Of a stretch of 34,209 nucleotides of DNA, positions 1,571-22,230 are shown piece after piece; position 1 is the first letter of the stretch; each line of letters starts with the position of its first letter. The DNA is from an uncultured Flavobacteriales bacterium (GTDB taxonomy: Bacteria > Bacteroidota > Bacteroidia > Flavobacteriales_D > Parvicellaceae): positions 1 through 34,209 of the forward strand of contig CAJYBK010000005.1 of NCBI GenBank assembly GCA_913064955.1, in the 5' to 3' direction. The notes beneath the pieces are model-generated. The model did not search any database. It was given only the letters and a program-made list of their open reading frames with translations, and was not told the DNA's origin. A program made the translations under genes and the position numbers.

Positions 1571-4324
1571 ATGATTAAAATTATAATGATGAATACATCC
1601 TCTACTATGTTGAACCTTAAATCTTTGTGTTTAATTTTTGTGTCATTTATTTACATAAATTCCAACGCCCAAGTAACCGTTAATAATACGAATACGGTGG
1701 AGTGGTATGTACAGAATGTACTTTTGGGAGCCAATGTAAGCGTAAGTAATATTACTTATAATGGAACCGCTTTGAACGCGCAAGCTGCTCAGCCGTCTGT
1801 TGGAGAATTTACCAACCCTGGTCTTCAGGTAGGGTTACCCAATGGAATGATTATGGGAACTGGTGATGTTCAAATGGCAAGTCAAGGAAATGTTGGAGGC
1901 GGATCAGGACTTGGAAATACAGGGCCTTCAAATTCAGCTAATGATGCTGATTTAAGCACCTTAGTGGCGGGAACTCAATTTCATAAATGTATTGTTGAGT
2001 TTGATTTCATTCCAACAGGAGATTCAATTTCTTTTAATTACATATTTGCTTCAGAGGAATATGAAGAGTATGTCTGTTCGGAATTTAATGATGTATTCGG
2101 GTTCTTTCTTTCAGGACCTAACCCTGGTGGAGGAAATTATACAGGGTTTAATGTTGCCAGAGTACCAAGTTCATTGTCCCCTGTTGCTTTTACAAACACC
2201 CCCGTTGCCATTAATACCATAAACCCAGGTGTTGCTGGAGCGAATGGTACTGTTTCAGAGTGCAGTGCTATTGATGTTAACTGGGCTTCTTACAGTATTT
2301 ATTATACACCTAATACTGGAACTTCTTATGAGTACGATGGAAGAACAGTCCCTCTGCCTGTTGCTGTACCTGTTGTTTGTGGAGATACGTATCACATCAA
2401 ATTAGCTATTGCGGATATTGGAGATGGACTTTATGATTCCGGAGTGTTTTTGGAAGCAGGTAGTTTTTCTTCGAATGGAGTTTCAGCGGCTAATGCAACC
2501 GCTCCGGGTGATGTAACTTTATGTACTACGGATTTAACAATGGATTTTAGTGCAGGTACAGACCCCGCCCCTGATAATTACTGGGACTTTGGGGATGGGA
2601 TAGGCACCTCCACACTCCCAGATCCATCATACACATACTTGGATACTGGATACTATCAGGTGATGTATATAGCATCCTCAACAACCGGAAGTTGTTATTC
2701 AGCAGATACTGTATATTTTGACGTGAATTTGATTTATCCGGAGCAATTCAATGCACAGTTTAATATTCCTCCTATTGATCCTTGCGATGGCATGGATAGT
2801 TTGTTGGTTAGTTTAGCCTTTACGGGTACTGGTGCAGATTCTATAGTTTGGGATATGGGAAATGGAACGATTTTCTCAGACTCCTTGTCAGTTGATTATT
2901 ATTACACCAATCAAGGCGTATATACAATAACAATGACGGCATTTGATAATACTTGTAATAACCAACAGTCATTTACGGAAACGTTTGATTACACAACTAC
3001 ATTCTCAACTGCTAATGCAGTAGCACCACCAGATACAAGTTTTTGTGGGCCACCGCCATACGATTTGGATTTTACCGCTACCTCAACAACTCCGGATCAC
3101 TACTGGGATTTTGGTGATGGAACAGGAACATCAACTCAAGCAAATCCTTCATATACATTTATAACCTCCGGGAATTATGACATTATGTATGTGGCGATTG
3201 ACTCAACTACTTGTAATATTGCCGATACAGTTTATTTTAATGTGGATATACTGCAGGCAGAAGAATTGTCGGCATCCTTTAACCTACCTGTTGTTGAACC
3301 ATGTACTTCACCAGATAGTGTGGAAGTAAATCTGGCATTTACTGGTACTGGTGCAGATTCCTTATCTTGGGACATGGGTAACGGAACAGTATTCTCAGAT
3401 GTTAATAATGTTGATTATTATTATACGTCTCAAGGAACTTATACAATTACAATGTCTGCATGGGATTTTCAATGTAATACTTTTGCTACATTTACAGATG
3501 TAGTTGATTTTAACACTTCTTACACCGCGGCCACTGCTGATGTTCCGGAAGATATATTTTTATGTACGTCTCCTTTAGATGTTGATTTTTCTGCAGGAAA
3601 CACTCCTCCACCAAACAGTTATTGGGATTTTGGAGATGGAGTAGGGACATCTAATCAAACGAATCCAACGTACACTTATGGGTCAACAGGAGATTATCAA
3701 GTGATGTACGTAGCGATCGATTCTTCTACGTGTAATATTGCAGATACCGTGTACTTTGATGTTACTCTGGCGCAAGCGGAAACTTTTTCTGCAACATTAG
3801 GTTTCGTTCCTCCACCGCCTTGTGGAAACGACAGCTTAATTGTGGATCTTGCGTTTACAGGTTCGGGTGCTGATTCCATAGTTTGGAATATGGGTAATGG
3901 AGATATCTTTTATACAAACGCGGTGGTTTATGCTTATACTGTGCCAGGAGAATACACCATATCAATGACTGCTTATGATAACTTATGTAATAATGTAGAA
4001 ACAATTTCCGAAACGGTAACGTTTGCTGGGGAAGTTGTTAGTATTGCTGATGTGCCAAATGTTTTTACACCGAATGGAGATGGTCAAAACGATATTTTGA
4101 AAATAATGAGCATCGATCCAAGTGCAGAATTTAGCATGACAATCTACAACAGATGGGGTAAAAAAGTATTTGTGTCCGAATCTAATGGAGACTTTTGGGA
4201 TGGAAGTAGTCGACTAGGAGGAGAGTCTCACGCAGGGACTTATTACTATGAGGTTATTTATAGAGACATTTGCACTGACGAAGACAAGTTAAAAACAGGA
4301 TACGTGCAATTAATGAGAGAATAA
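1571..4324 (+). CDS. secreted choice-of-anchor-L / PKD-repeat protein with T9SS type B (gliding-motility-associated) C-terminal domain
   Basis: Signal peptide; N-terminal choice-of-anchor-L-like region (NITYNGTALNAQ...GMIMGTGDV...FNDVFGFFLSGPNPGG); three PKD-like units (YWDFGDGxGTS); C-terminal VPNVFTPNGDGQNDILKI...YNRWGKKVF...WDG...GTYYYEVIY. ATG codons at 1586, 1589 or 1607 are alternative starts. Confidence 0.88.
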   Translation: MIKIIMMNTSSTMLNLKSLCLIFVSFIYINSNAQVTVNNTNTVEWYVQNVLLGANVSVSNITYNGTALNAQAAQPSVGEFTNPGLQVGLPNGMIMGTGDVQMASQGNVGGGSGLGNTGPSNSANDADLSTLVAGTQFHKCIVEFDFIPTGDSISFNYIFASEEYEEYVCSEFNDVFGFFLSGPNPGGGNYTGFNVARVPSSLSPVAFTNTPVAINTINPGVAGANGTVSECSAIDVNWASYSIYYTPNTGTSYEYDGRTVPLPVAVPVVCGDTYHIKLAIADIGDGLYDSGVFLEAGSFSSNGVSAANATAPGDVTLCTTDLTMDFSAGTDPAPDNYWDFGDGIGTSTLPDPSYTYLDTGYYQVMYIASSTTGSCYSADTVYFDVNLIYPEQFNAQFNIPPIDPCDGMDSLLVSLAFTGTGADSIVWDMGNGTIFSDSLSVDYYYTNQGVYTITMTAFDNTCNNQQSFTETFDYTTTFSTANAVAPPDTSFCGPPPYDLDFTATSTTPDHYWDFGDGTGTSTQANPSYTFITSGNYDIMYVAIDSTTCNIADTVYFNVDILQAEELSASFNLPVVEPCTSPDSVEVNLAFTGTGADSLSWDMGNGTVFSDVNNVDYYYTSQGTYTITMSAWDFQCNTFATFTDVVDFNTSYTAATADVPEDIFLCTSPLDVDFSAGNTPPPNSYWDFGDGVGTSNQTNPTYTYGSTGDYQVMYVAIDSSTCNIADTVYFDVTLAQAETFSATLGFVPPPPCGNDSLIVDLAFTGSGADSIVWNMGNGDIFYTNAVVYAYTVPGEYTISMTAYDNLCNNVETISETVTFAGEVVSIADVPNVFTPNGDGQNDILKIMSIDPSAEFSMTIYNRWGKKVFVSESNGDFWDGSSRLGGESHAGTYYYEVIYRDICTDEDKLKTGYVQLMRE
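2489..4027 (+). repeat. three tandem intragenic repeat units of ~520 bp (~173 aa) encoding PKD-like pairs
   Basis: Units begin near 2489, 3011 and 3530. Each carries A(N/T)AxxPxDxxxC...YWDFGDGxGTS...YQVMYxA...ADTVYF(D/N)V, then AFTG(T/S)GADSxxWxMGNG...YTI(T/S)M(T/S)A. Confidence 0.85.
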
Positions 4325-4350: not shown

Positions 4351-4380
4351 AAAAGCGATGGCATTGTCATCGCTTTTTTT
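4351..4380 (+). terminator. intrinsic terminator
   Basis: AAAAGCGATG-GCATTGT-CATCGCTTTT hairpin followed by a T run, 3' of the PKD gene. Confidence 0.85.
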
Positions 4381-4427
4381 GTTTCAAATTTTATCAAAAA
4401 CGTAAAAGATTTACGGAGTATTGAAAT

Positions 4428-12076: not shown

Positions 12077-12131
12077 TTCATTAACTTTACCTTGCTTGAA
12101 TTGCCACCTGCATCATCAAACTTGGTACAAC

Positions 12132-12689
12132 ATGAATGAAAATTATCACCCCGAAGAGTGGAAAAAAATTGAGTTTTCTGATAACATTTCCGAACATGAG
12201 CAATACTTAATTTCTACTTACGGTAGGGTGAAAAGCCTTAAAATAAATAAGGTGACAGGTATTTTGTATAAAACATCACCTACCAACAATTATAAAAGAA
12301 TCTCGGTTGTTCAAAAAAGCGGTAAAAGGACTGCTAGATGCGTTCATAAATTGGTAGCGGAGGCATTCGTAGAAAAAACAGATACAGACCAAAAGTTTGT
12401 AATTCATTTGGATTACGACAAATTAAATAACAATGTTTGGAACTTAGCTTGGGCTACGCAAGAGCAGAAAGTAGCTCACAATAATAAAGACCCTAAGCAC
12501 AAAGACCCCAATTACCGAGTTAAAAACTCAAAATTGAGTGAGGGAAAAGTGAGAATGATTAAGAAAAAACTCCTTGATCCAAATAGAAAAACAAGACTAA
12601 AAATGTTAGCCAAACAATTTGGTGTTTCAGAAATGCAATTGCACCGAATTAAGACTGGAGAGAACTGGAGTCATGTGACAATTGATTAA
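12132..12689 (+). CDS. NUMOD4/HNH homing-endonuclease-like protein with C-terminal HTH
   Basis: EEWKKIEFSD...YLISTYGRVKSLK (NUMOD4-like), CVHKLVAEAFV...VIHLDYDKLNNNVWNLAWATQEQ (HNH-like), LAKQFGVSEMQLHRIKTGENWSHV (HTH-like). The listed ORF starts at TTG 12096; ATG at 12132 is more likely. Confidence 0.85.
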   Translation: MNENYHPEEWKKIEFSDNISEHEQYLISTYGRVKSLKINKVTGILYKTSPTNNYKRISVVQKSGKRTARCVHKLVAEAFVEKTDTDQKFVIHLDYDKLNNNVWNLAWATQEQKVAHNNKDPKHKDPNYRVKNSKLSEGKVRMIKKKLLDPNRKTRLKMLAKQFGVSEMQLHRIKTGENWSHVTID

Positions 12690-19467: not shown

Positions 19468-20040
19468 TTGAAACAAACAAATTCAATATATCATCATAAT
19501 GCCAGTGCTTTGGAAGAAGAAAGGCAATGGATAGAAAAAGCTAAAGTTAATCCTTCAGATTTTGGCGTATTGTATAAAAAATACTACCTACAGATTTTTA
19601 GATTTGTGCTCAAGAGGGTTGGAGACGAAAATATCTCAGCAGAAATTGTAAGTGACATTTTTGTTAAAGCGCTACAAAACATTTCTAAGTACGAACACAA
19701 AGGGTTTCCATTTTCTGCTTGGTTATTTCAAATAGCTAGGAATGAAGTTAATCTTTCATACCGCAAGGAGAAATACAATAAGACCGTTACTGTGGAAACG
19801 CCAGAATTAAATGAAGTGCTAGAGGAGGTGGACGAAACGCAACATGAAGAAAACATTCAATTGCTTTTGGGCGGGCTAAAGGAGTTAAAACCTGATGAAC
19901 TGGAAATATTAGAAATGCGATATTTTGAAAAAAGACCATTTAAGGAGGTAAGTGCGATTCTGGAAATTACAGAAAGTACCGCCAAAGTTAGAATGCACAG
20001 GGTTATGCAGAAATTGAAAGATATTATTACAAGAAAATGA
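19468..20040 (+). CDS. RNA polymerase sigma-70 family (ECF-like) factor
   Basis: Sigma region 2 (YLQIFRFVLKRVGDENISAEIVSDIFVKALQNISKY...FSAWLFQIARNEVNLSYR) and region 4 (LKPDELEILEMRYFEKRPFKEVSAILEITESTAKVRMHRVMQKLK). No usable ATG; TTG at 19468 or 19510 is the likely start. Confidence 0.88.
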   Translation: MKQTNSIYHHNASALEEERQWIEKAKVNPSDFGVLYKKYYLQIFRFVLKRVGDENISAEIVSDIFVKALQNISKYEHKGFPFSAWLFQIARNEVNLSYRKEKYNKTVTVETPELNEVLEEVDETQHEENIQLLLGGLKELKPDELEILEMRYFEKRPFKEVSAILEITESTAKVRMHRVMQKLKDIITRK

Positions 20041-20756
20041 AAGAATTAAACATAAATAGGGACGTGCCACAACCATCTGATGATGATTTGTTAAAGCATC
20101 AAAACTTTGAAGAGGTGCTTAAAAAAGCTTCTCATACTACAACTGTAGAAACCGGTAACCTAGTCAGTAAAAAATGGTGGTATTTTGGAGTTGGTTTGTT
20201 TGTTGTTGCGGGGGTATTTGTTTCTACAATTATTGCAACTACATTTAGTACAAAAAATTACAAAAAAAACTATACTACTGTTAATCAAGATATTGTGGAG
20301 GTAAATAAATTGCAAGAAGTAGACTTGTCTATATTAAACAATATTTTGACTATTGAAAATAATACAGAAATTCAAAAAGAATCGGATAAAAATGAATTCG
20401 AACAGGAAGAAATAGAAGGTACAGTTCCAATCAAAAAAGTAGTACAGATTTACTATCCGAAAGAAGCCTCTACTTTAACCTTCAAACTCGAAGAGTCATT
20501 TGGGTTAAAGAGTCAGTATCAAAAGTTTGAGGAATTTTCCATCTATTCGAACCTTTCTTTTCAACCTATTGGTGATTATCAAAGCGGCTGGTTAAAAGCT
20601 AGTTGGTCTGAAGTTCAATTGGTCAAGAAAAGCGACAACTATTTTTTAATGTTATCAAAAAATGGTATTACTATTCCTTGTCAAGTTGTTCCTGTATTTG
20701 AATCAGAAGATTATGTGAATGCATTAGATATTTACGCTGCTAACGCAGGTAAATGA
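20037..20756 (+). CDS. single-pass membrane protein, putative non-canonical anti-sigma factor
   Basis: 4-nt ATGA overlap with the sigma factor stop; one TM (WWYFGVGLFVVAGVFVSTIIATTF) after a ~45 aa N-terminal tail. No Zn-binding anti-sigma motif seen. Confidence 0.55.
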   Translation: MKELNINRDVPQPSDDDLLKHQNFEEVLKKASHTTTVETGNLVSKKWWYFGVGLFVVAGVFVSTIIATTFSTKNYKKNYTTVNQDIVEVNKLQEVDLSILNNILTIENNTEIQKESDKNEFEQEEIEGTVPIKKVVQIYYPKEASTLTFKLEESFGLKSQYQKFEEFSIYSNLSFQPIGDYQSGWLKASWSEVQLVKKSDNYFLMLSKNGITIPCQVVPVFESEDYVNALDIYAANAGK

Positions 20757-20757
20757 T

Positions 20758-21498
20758 TTAGAACGTATTAATACGATCCAGGAAGCTAGTCATTTTTCTT
20801 CTTGCTACAGGAACCATTTTACCATTTTGAAGGACAGCCATATTACCCTCTTTTCTTGAAAATTCCTTCAAGTGATGTTCTACATTTACAATATATGATT
20901 TATGCGTACGGTAGAAAACATTTGCGTTCAGGTTGTCCTCATATACCTTAATGTTTTTGCTGCTCAAATGCCTTGTTCCATTGGCAAGATAAATCATTGT
21001 GTAGTTGTCACTTGCTTCTAAATGAGTTATTTCATCGTTTTTAAGGATAATGAATCCATCTCTAGTTGGGACGCTTATTCTGTCATTACTTTTATCCGCT
21101 TCTTTTTTGGCATCTAAAGCATCAGTGTCTTCGATGGTGTGGATTCTTAAAAGTTTCTCTACAGCAGTTTGTAGGTCATCAATGCTAATTGGTTTTTCTA
21201 AATAATCTATTGCATCAGCCTTAAATGCTTTCAATGCATATTCGTTATATGCAGTAGTGAAAATCACAGAGAAATCACGGTTTTCGTAATGCTTTAACAA
21301 TTCAAACCCATCTTCATTTGGCATAGCGATATCTAGAAATACCACTTCAGGATCTTCCTTGTCGATTAATGTTCTTGCTTCCGCTACTGAAGCGGCCAAA
21401 CCAACAACTTTCAGTTCTGGGCAAAACTCATCTACTAATATTTTTAAGTTCTCTCTTGCGTTGCTTTCATCGTCTACTATAATTGTTTTGAGTGCCAT
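20758..21498 (-). CDS. LytTR-type response regulator (REC + LytTR)
   Basis: REC domain (TIIVDDESNARENLKILVDE...PEVVFLDIAMPNEDGFELL...VIFTTAYNEYALKAFKADAIDYLEKPI) plus LytTR domain (ITHLEASDNYTMIYLANGTRHLSSKNIKVYEDNL...FYRTHKSYIVNVEHHLKEFSRKEGNMAVLQNGKMVPVARRK). Confidence 0.95.
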   Translation of the reverse strand: MALKTIIVDDESNARENLKILVDEFCPELKVVGLAASVAEARTLIDKEDPEVVFLDIAMPNEDGFELLKHYENRDFSVIFTTAYNEYALKAFKADAIDYLEKPISIDDLQTAVEKLLRIHTIEDTDALDAKKEADKSNDRISVPTRDGFIILKNDEITHLEASDNYTMIYLANGTRHLSSKNIKVYEDNLNANVFYRTHKSYIVNVEHHLKEFSRKEGNMAVLQNGKMVPVARRKMTSFLDRINTF

Positions 21499-21531: not shown

Positions 21532-21557
21532 TGTTAAATTTTAATAAAACGACAGGT

Positions 21558-21615
21558 CATTGAGTGGTTGGTATAAATCATTGAGTAGTTGGTAGGAACT
21601 ATTGAGTAGTTGGTT
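21558..21615. repeat. three direct repeats (CATTGAGTGGTTGGTA / CATTGAGTAGTTGGTA / TATTGAGTAGTTGGTT), period 21 bp
   Basis: Copies begin at 21558, 21579 and 21600 in the intergenic region between the divergent LytTR and CvpA-like genes. Confidence 0.9.
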
Positions 21616-21705: not shown

Positions 21706-22230
21706 ATGAATTACATTGACATAGTCATATTAATACCATTACTATGGGCTGGATATCGCGGGTTTACTAAAGGTGTTATTATCGAGGTGGCAAGCATCGT
21801 GGCTTTTGTTCTAGGCGTATGGGGAGGCATTCACTTTTCTGATTTAATAGGTGATTTTGTAAAAGAGAATATCAGCGACCAATACGAGCCAGTGATTTCT
21901 TTCACAATTATTTTTATAGCCATTGTGGTTGGTGTTTTTGTGATTGGAAAAACGCTTGAAAAGGTGGTCAACTTGGCCCAATTAAAAATAGCAAATAAAG
22001 TAGCAGGTGCGATTTTTGGAGTAGGTAAAATCGTTCTTATTTGGAGTTTTCTAATAATCATAATTAATCAATACGACAGTAAGTTCCATTTTATCCCTGA
22101 TGAAACAAAGGACAGTTCATTGCTATACAAACCGTTGATTGACCTTTCTAAAGCAATAGTTCCAGCTGTTGAAGATAGTGACACATTTAAAGAGAATGCT
22201 GGTGGATTTAACTTGTTTGGCAAGAACTAG
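21706..22230 (+). CDS. CvpA family membrane protein
   Basis: MNYIDIVILIPLLWAGYRGFTKGVIIEVASIVAFVLGVWGGIHFSDLI: CvpA N-terminal signature, multi-TM. Confidence 0.9.
   Translation: MNYIDIVILIPLLWAGYRGFTKGVIIEVASIVAFVLGVWGGIHFSDLIGDFVKENISDQYEPVISFTIIFIAIVVGVFVIGKTLEKVVNLAQLKIANKVAGAIFGVGKIVLIWSFLIIIINQYDSKFHFIPDETKDSSLLYKPLIDLSKAIVPAVEDSDTFKENAGGFNLFGKN

Follow-up and report, generated by a model that had tools for sequence, protein, structure and literature searches.

Three direct repeats in exact 21-bp phase stand upstream of a LytTR response regulator gene in the window, by which we mean the whole 34,209-nucleotide stretch of DNA analysed here, from an uncultured Flavobacteriales bacterium. 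We put the probability at roughly 85% that these three boxes are the putative operator of this regulator (20758–21498, minus strand), with positive autoregulation of its gene and a second promoter on contig C257. The boxes are very probably the landing site by which the regulator would control its own expression and that of one or more further genes, and we read the whole as a LytTR two-component system whose regulon is very small. The autoregulatory LytTR operator put forward in the original prediction is supported, as a predicted element, by its conservation in orthologues and by the lack of enrichment at the neighbouring paralogue. In our proposal the molecules of the regulator would occupy neighbouring boxes immediately ahead of the -33 element of its own promoter, lined up along one helix face because 21 bp makes two turns. 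The phosphorylated regulator would occupy two to three boxes and activate its own promoter, the bound protein most likely recruiting RNA polymerase; its sensor would be a Reg_prop/Y_Y_Y/His_kinase protein encoded elsewhere in this genus, and the same operator would drive the C257 promoter upstream of a gene for a 262-aa protein. We infer the binding of the boxes by the regulator, and activation rather than repression is most likely given the geometry and published precedent (PMC6193735).

The three repeats were predicted at 21558 (CATTGAGTGGTTGGTA), 21579 (CATTGAGTAGTTGGTA) and 21600 (TATTGAGTAGTTGGTT), and we confirmed both the copies and their spacing of exactly 21 bp. The conserved part is 15 bp of each 21-bp unit (YATTGAGTRGTTGGT on the plus strand, ACCAACYACTCAATR on the minus strand), while the 6-bp spacers between the boxes differ from one another. 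Read on the minus strand, the LytTR boxes are the proximal box 1, ACCAACCACTCAATG (21558–21572), the middle box 2, ACCAACTACTCAATG (21579–21593), and the distal box 3, ACCAACTACTCAATA (21600–21614). The array scored 28 as a triple, compared with a maximum of 23 in 300 dinucleotide-preserving shuffles of the 207-bp intergenic region, and its chance origin is therefore excluded; a 14/15 pair at any lag from 10 to 60 arose in 3 of 1500 shuffles. When the 3.45-Mb genome was scanned for paired boxes, allowing as many as 3 mismatches and using pattern searches rather than a weight matrix as in all our regulon scans, the only matches were the window site and contig C257, and the reversed control pattern gave 0 matches over the whole assembly. 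Genome scans with a single box returned matches at control level.

The boxes, which come in the order 3, 2, 1 on the minus strand, are followed there by 3 bp, TGTC, 19 bp, TAGTTTTG and, 25 bp further, the ATG. The -7 box TAGTTTTG had been predicted 26 nt after the proximal box and ahead of the LytTR gene, and it is present there as exact sequence (21531–21524, minus strand), with the Bacteroidota TAnnTTTG motif equally spaced in orthologues. The putative -33 element TGTC (21551–21554, minus strand) was read from the sequence 19 bp upstream of the -7 element, so that TGTC-N19-TAGTTTTG has the layout of a Bacteroidota -33/-7 promoter. In six promoters, comprising those of all four species of the genus and two further relatives, TAnnTTTG lies 26–27 bp after the proximal box, and in a seventh it lies at 47 bp (26+21). 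A similar arrangement occurs in the Bacteroides LRS-like operons, whose LytTR promoters read TGTA-19 bp-TATCTTTG and TGTG-19 bp-TATCTTTG and resemble TGTC-N19-TAGTTTTG here; in these operons direct repeats with a 22-bp period lie 11 bp upstream of TGTA-19-TATCTTTG (PMC6193735). As in the HdrRM and BrsRM systems of Streptococcus mutans, direct repeats with a period of ∼21–22 bp lie just ahead of the regulator's own promoter (PMC6193735).

To ask how widely this arrangement is kept, we assembled 54 distinct orthologue promoters from relatives, whole-genome regions and named genome records (Cryomorphaceae, Vicingaceae, Crocinitomicaceae and other Flavobacteriales, the named records being mostly metagenome bins) and determined the best 15-base self-match of each promoter at every lag from 10 to 40. 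The mean self-match at lag 21 was 10.78, compared with 7.85–8.63 at every other lag, making it the only enriched lag. With 13-base windows, lag-21 pairs occurred in 46 of the 54 promoters (threshold 9 matches) against a mean of 9.4 at other lags, and three successive boxes occurred in 22 (threshold 8) against a mean of 1.1; the promoters are mutually related and these counts are not independent, the other lags in the same sequences serving as the control. The third copy, which the original prediction had singled out as notable, is therefore real but not exceptional, given its recurrence in these 22 promoters and the precedents of CoxC and RcoM (PMC11347149). Promoters of the tandem paralogous LytTR gene showed no peak (19 usable promoters, lag 21 at 9.63 within a range of 8.16–10.0), and the lag-21 signature therefore belongs specifically to the promoter of this regulator rather than to LytTR genes in general. 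A lack of conserved repeats ahead of orthologous regulators had been named beforehand as one outcome that would refute the prediction; 21-bp-phased boxes are kept upstream of the orthologous regulators, though some orthologues, notably in genus g8, lack a clear motif pair. The box sequence itself drifts by lineage, from ACCAACYACTCAATR in the window to TCAGTTACTCAATG in G001, TTACCGTTAACTCAAT in G057 and CTACCGTTTAATT in oceanic bins. Perfect 15/15 self-repeats at 21 bp also stand upstream of LytTR orthologues, with TTACCGTTAACTCAA twice and ACAGATAACTCAA twice (L041/L104; G051, G057), and the predicted operators of G051 and G057 are the cleanest outside the genus. Lag analysis of orthologous promoters can thus locate LytTR operators where the consensus is too weak.

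LytTR response regulators of the AgrA/ComE type have paired 9-bp direct repeats with the sense-orientation consensus [TA][AC][CA]GTTN[AG][TG]. The window boxes match this classical consensus at 5–6 of 9 positions on the sense strand and at 7 of 9 on the opposite strand, the poor sense-strand match arising because the GTT of relatives reads AAC here; the boxes of several relatives match it in sense orientation at 8 of 9 positions (for example TCAGTTACT, ACCGTTAAC and ACCGTTTAA). The system shares with regulators of the AgrA/ComE type the receiver plus LytTR architecture and direct repeats of ∼21-bp period, which in that type lie upstream of -35, and differs from them in having AAC for GTT, a 15-bp conserved box, a third copy and a likely Reg_prop sensor partner. 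Three evenly phased repeats are also bound by the LytTR domains of CoxC and RcoM, where 8-bp repeats (TTCNNGCA/TTNNNGCN) separated by spacers of 12–13 bp give a period of ∼20–21 bp; unlike the regulator described here, these are one-component CO sensors, and CoxC is a repressor (PMC11347149). Neither LytTR autoregulation nor a LytTR operator of three repeats is new in itself; what is newly mapped is the conservation of this one across a marine bacterial group and its small target set. Our literature search found no paper on LytTR binding sites with direct repeats in Bacteroidetes and none on Reg_prop proteins with LytTR; Bacteroidota have many LytTR regulators, yet we found hardly any of their binding sites in the literature. 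This case supplies a concrete box with its phasing and the geometry of its promoter, along with one candidate target and a probable sensor.

The presumed box binder is a protein of 246 aa with a response regulator domain and a LytTR DNA-binding domain, both above the curated Pfam cut-offs (Response_reg 3.2e-21, LytTR 5.9e-16), and ComE (PDB 4cbv, E 4.5e-06) matches it over both domains. The nearest full-length NCBIfam model is BtsR (E 6.2e-40); however, we do not assign the protein to BtsR because its 137 bits fall under the curated equivalog cut-off of 246. The LytS-LytTR systems BtsSR and YpdAB also differ in sensor type and targets (PMC5552118). LytTR domains number 9 in this genome and 14 in the sister genome. 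The LytTR Regulatory Systems (LRS) have an inhibitory membrane protein and two boxes of different sequence (PMC6193735), whereas here we find a receiver domain, a probable ancestral histidine kinase partner and three boxes. No inhibitory membrane protein gene lies beside the regulator, whose neighbours are a divergent cvpA and a converging ECF-sigma gene pair. Given these neighbours and the ancestral kinase partner, the system would work like an LRS but is not one.

No sensor kinase gene was evident among the ORFs of the window when these were read by eye, in keeping with the original prediction. Most relatives have a Reg_prop histidine kinase gene immediately after the regulator, and in the loci of ∼20 relatives the gene order is LytTR paralogue, regulator and Reg_prop/Y_Y_Y/His_kinase sensor gene. 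In this genus the regulator is separated from both the paralogue and the kinase gene, and the missing adjacent kinase is thus a lineage-specific separation. Full-length kinase homologues are present on contig C260 of this genome (51% identity), in G001 and in G002; in G001 the homologue lies at 1.24 Mb and the regulator at 3.71 Mb. Ancestral linkage makes the Reg_prop/Y_Y_Y/His_kinase protein the probable sensor of the regulator. No boxes were found upstream of the kinase genes in this genus.

The second site, on contig C257, is the only other strong site in this genome. It contains three boxes at 21-bp phase (ACCAACCGCTCAACA, ACCAACCACTCAATG and ACAAGTTACTCATTT) followed by TATTTTTG, and these point to the 262-aa gene ∼260 bp downstream (L116 598–1386). 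A genome scan for 21-bp-spaced boxes had been suggested as a way to define a regulon; it yielded this second site but not a larger set, and we claim no larger regulon because searches of six genomes for ACTCAAT pairs, with one mismatch allowed, stayed at control level. The 262-aa family has ten matches in G001 (homologues at L117 3142–3915 and L118 3032–3805). The best of them is preceded by a two-box operator, CAGTTACTCAATG and, 21 bp on, GAGTTACTCAATA, plus a degenerate third box, and this operator is nearly identical to the boxes in the promoter of G001's own regulator. Across the complete 4-Mb G001 genome, exact ACTCAAT-N14-ACTCAAY occurs at two sites only, one in the promoter of the regulator and the other ahead of the gene for the 262-aa homologue. 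The box variant common to the sites within each genome suggests co-evolution of the sites with one protein, with duplication of a promoter as the alternative. A promoter core of the 262-aa gene, TTTAACAA...AACCC-T-rich, is conserved between this genome (G000) and G001 and recurs at another G001 copy, whose boxes have decayed. Family copies outside the genus are without boxes, and matches in L060 among them proved to be a simple repeat. The 262-aa protein has no relative in Pfam, NCBIfam or PHROGs (E below 0.05) or in PDB.

The family consists of proteins of ∼250–260 aa, with multiple copies in one sister genome and a scattered occurrence among other Flavobacteriales; in several genomes the family gene is followed by a short ORF of a different type (MRLTLIRIYG...). 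The 262-aa gene is divergent from an hsdR-like gene in this genome (L116 598–4510) and from cas9-cas1-cas2 in G001 (L117 3142–9708; the cas genes were recognised by eye), and these defence-gene neighbours may be coincidental. Dispersed TGTCATATTGAGCGAA-type repeats, possibly miniature mobile elements, flank the G001 target gene (L117 2821–2904 and 4439–4522, also 3976–3999 and 4366–4389) and lengthen the leader from operator to gene to ∼750 bp.

A class-wide scan for the window's box variant returned 3 genomes besides G000 among 395. The match in G372 (L042) is a simple-sequence false match, and that in G054 (L044) lies between a paralogous LytTR gene and the gene next to it. The match in G381, a distant member of the class, may be a genuine related site: ACCAACTACTCAAA and ACCAACTACTCATT stand at 21-bp spacing upstream of a Reg_prop gene (L045 1501–1535), which suggests a regulator of the same specificity controlling its sensor. 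More tentatively, and at rather less than even odds, we propose that a 21-bp-phased operator, often with three boxes, is the conserved mark of a Reg_prop-kinase/LytTR system in Flavobacteriales, and that in this genus the parts of the system were separated and its reach reduced to a nearly dedicated switch, acting on itself and on a single protein whose family is uncharacterised, with co-evolving species-specific boxes and a target divergent from defence genes.

Several other explanations of the boxes must be weighed. A LytTR operator could also act as a repressor site, with occupancy over the -33 region shutting the promoter in negative autoregulation. The proximal box ends 3 bp before the putative -33, compared with the 10–11 bp usual in LytTR operons, and partial overlap and repression are therefore possible; we keep repression as a rival because the LytTR protein CoxC, whose three repeats overlap -35, is a repressor (PMC11347149). 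On the other hand, the boxes lie upstream of the -33/-7 elements and not over them, the conserved 26–27 bp to the -7 element is the layout of a LytTR activator, and the LytTR systems of S. mutans are autoactivated via direct repeats 4–11 bp upstream of -35 (PMC6193735), so that we regard repression as unlikely, with perhaps one chance in five. Alternatively, the boxes might bind another factor that controls the regulator, such as the LytTR paralogue (on contig C64 in this genome), since site preferences are common to LytTR proteins and, in most relatives, the gene immediately preceding the regulator is that of the paralogue. This is quite improbable, as paralogue promoters are without the lag-21 signature and as in this genus, where the paralogue is unlinked, the boxes have remained beside the regulator and are most regular in the window.

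The original prediction had also proposed control of the divergent CvpA-like gene (21706–22230, plus strand; Pfam Colicin_V 4.4e-26). The boxes might even serve cvpA, alone or together with the regulator gene, the latter being a bystander, as the intergenic region is common to both genes and cvpA is divergent in G001 too. Among the genomes examined, however, only this one and G001 have cvpA as the divergent neighbour; G002, G003 and the other relatives examined, including other families, have a different upstream gene and still keep 21-bp boxes before the regulator. The operator thus goes with the regulator gene and not with cvpA, which is probably outside the regulated unit. Moreover, the boxes at the second sites in C257 and G001 share one orientation and face a downstream gene. 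We therefore find control of cvpA unsupported and a cvpA operator very unlikely. That the array is a neutral tandem duplication or a mobile repeat with no regulatory role would fit the near identity of the boxes, yet the 15-bp boxes alone are conserved while their spacers differ, phased boxes persist across families despite diverged sequence and copies of the pattern are not spread about the genome; such an origin has next to no probability. An activating operator of the LytTR regulator remains our preferred reading.

The converging gene pair (19468–20756) encodes an ECF-type sigma factor and, with a four-base overlap, a product without a Pfam match that is probably membrane-anchored and possibly an anti-sigma factor; its end lies 2 bp from that of the LytTR gene. 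Elsewhere in the window, a small ORF (12096–12689) whose product by eye resembles NUMOD4/HNH homing-endonuclease-type proteins is flanked by the genes for a large secreted protein and a dehydrogenase.
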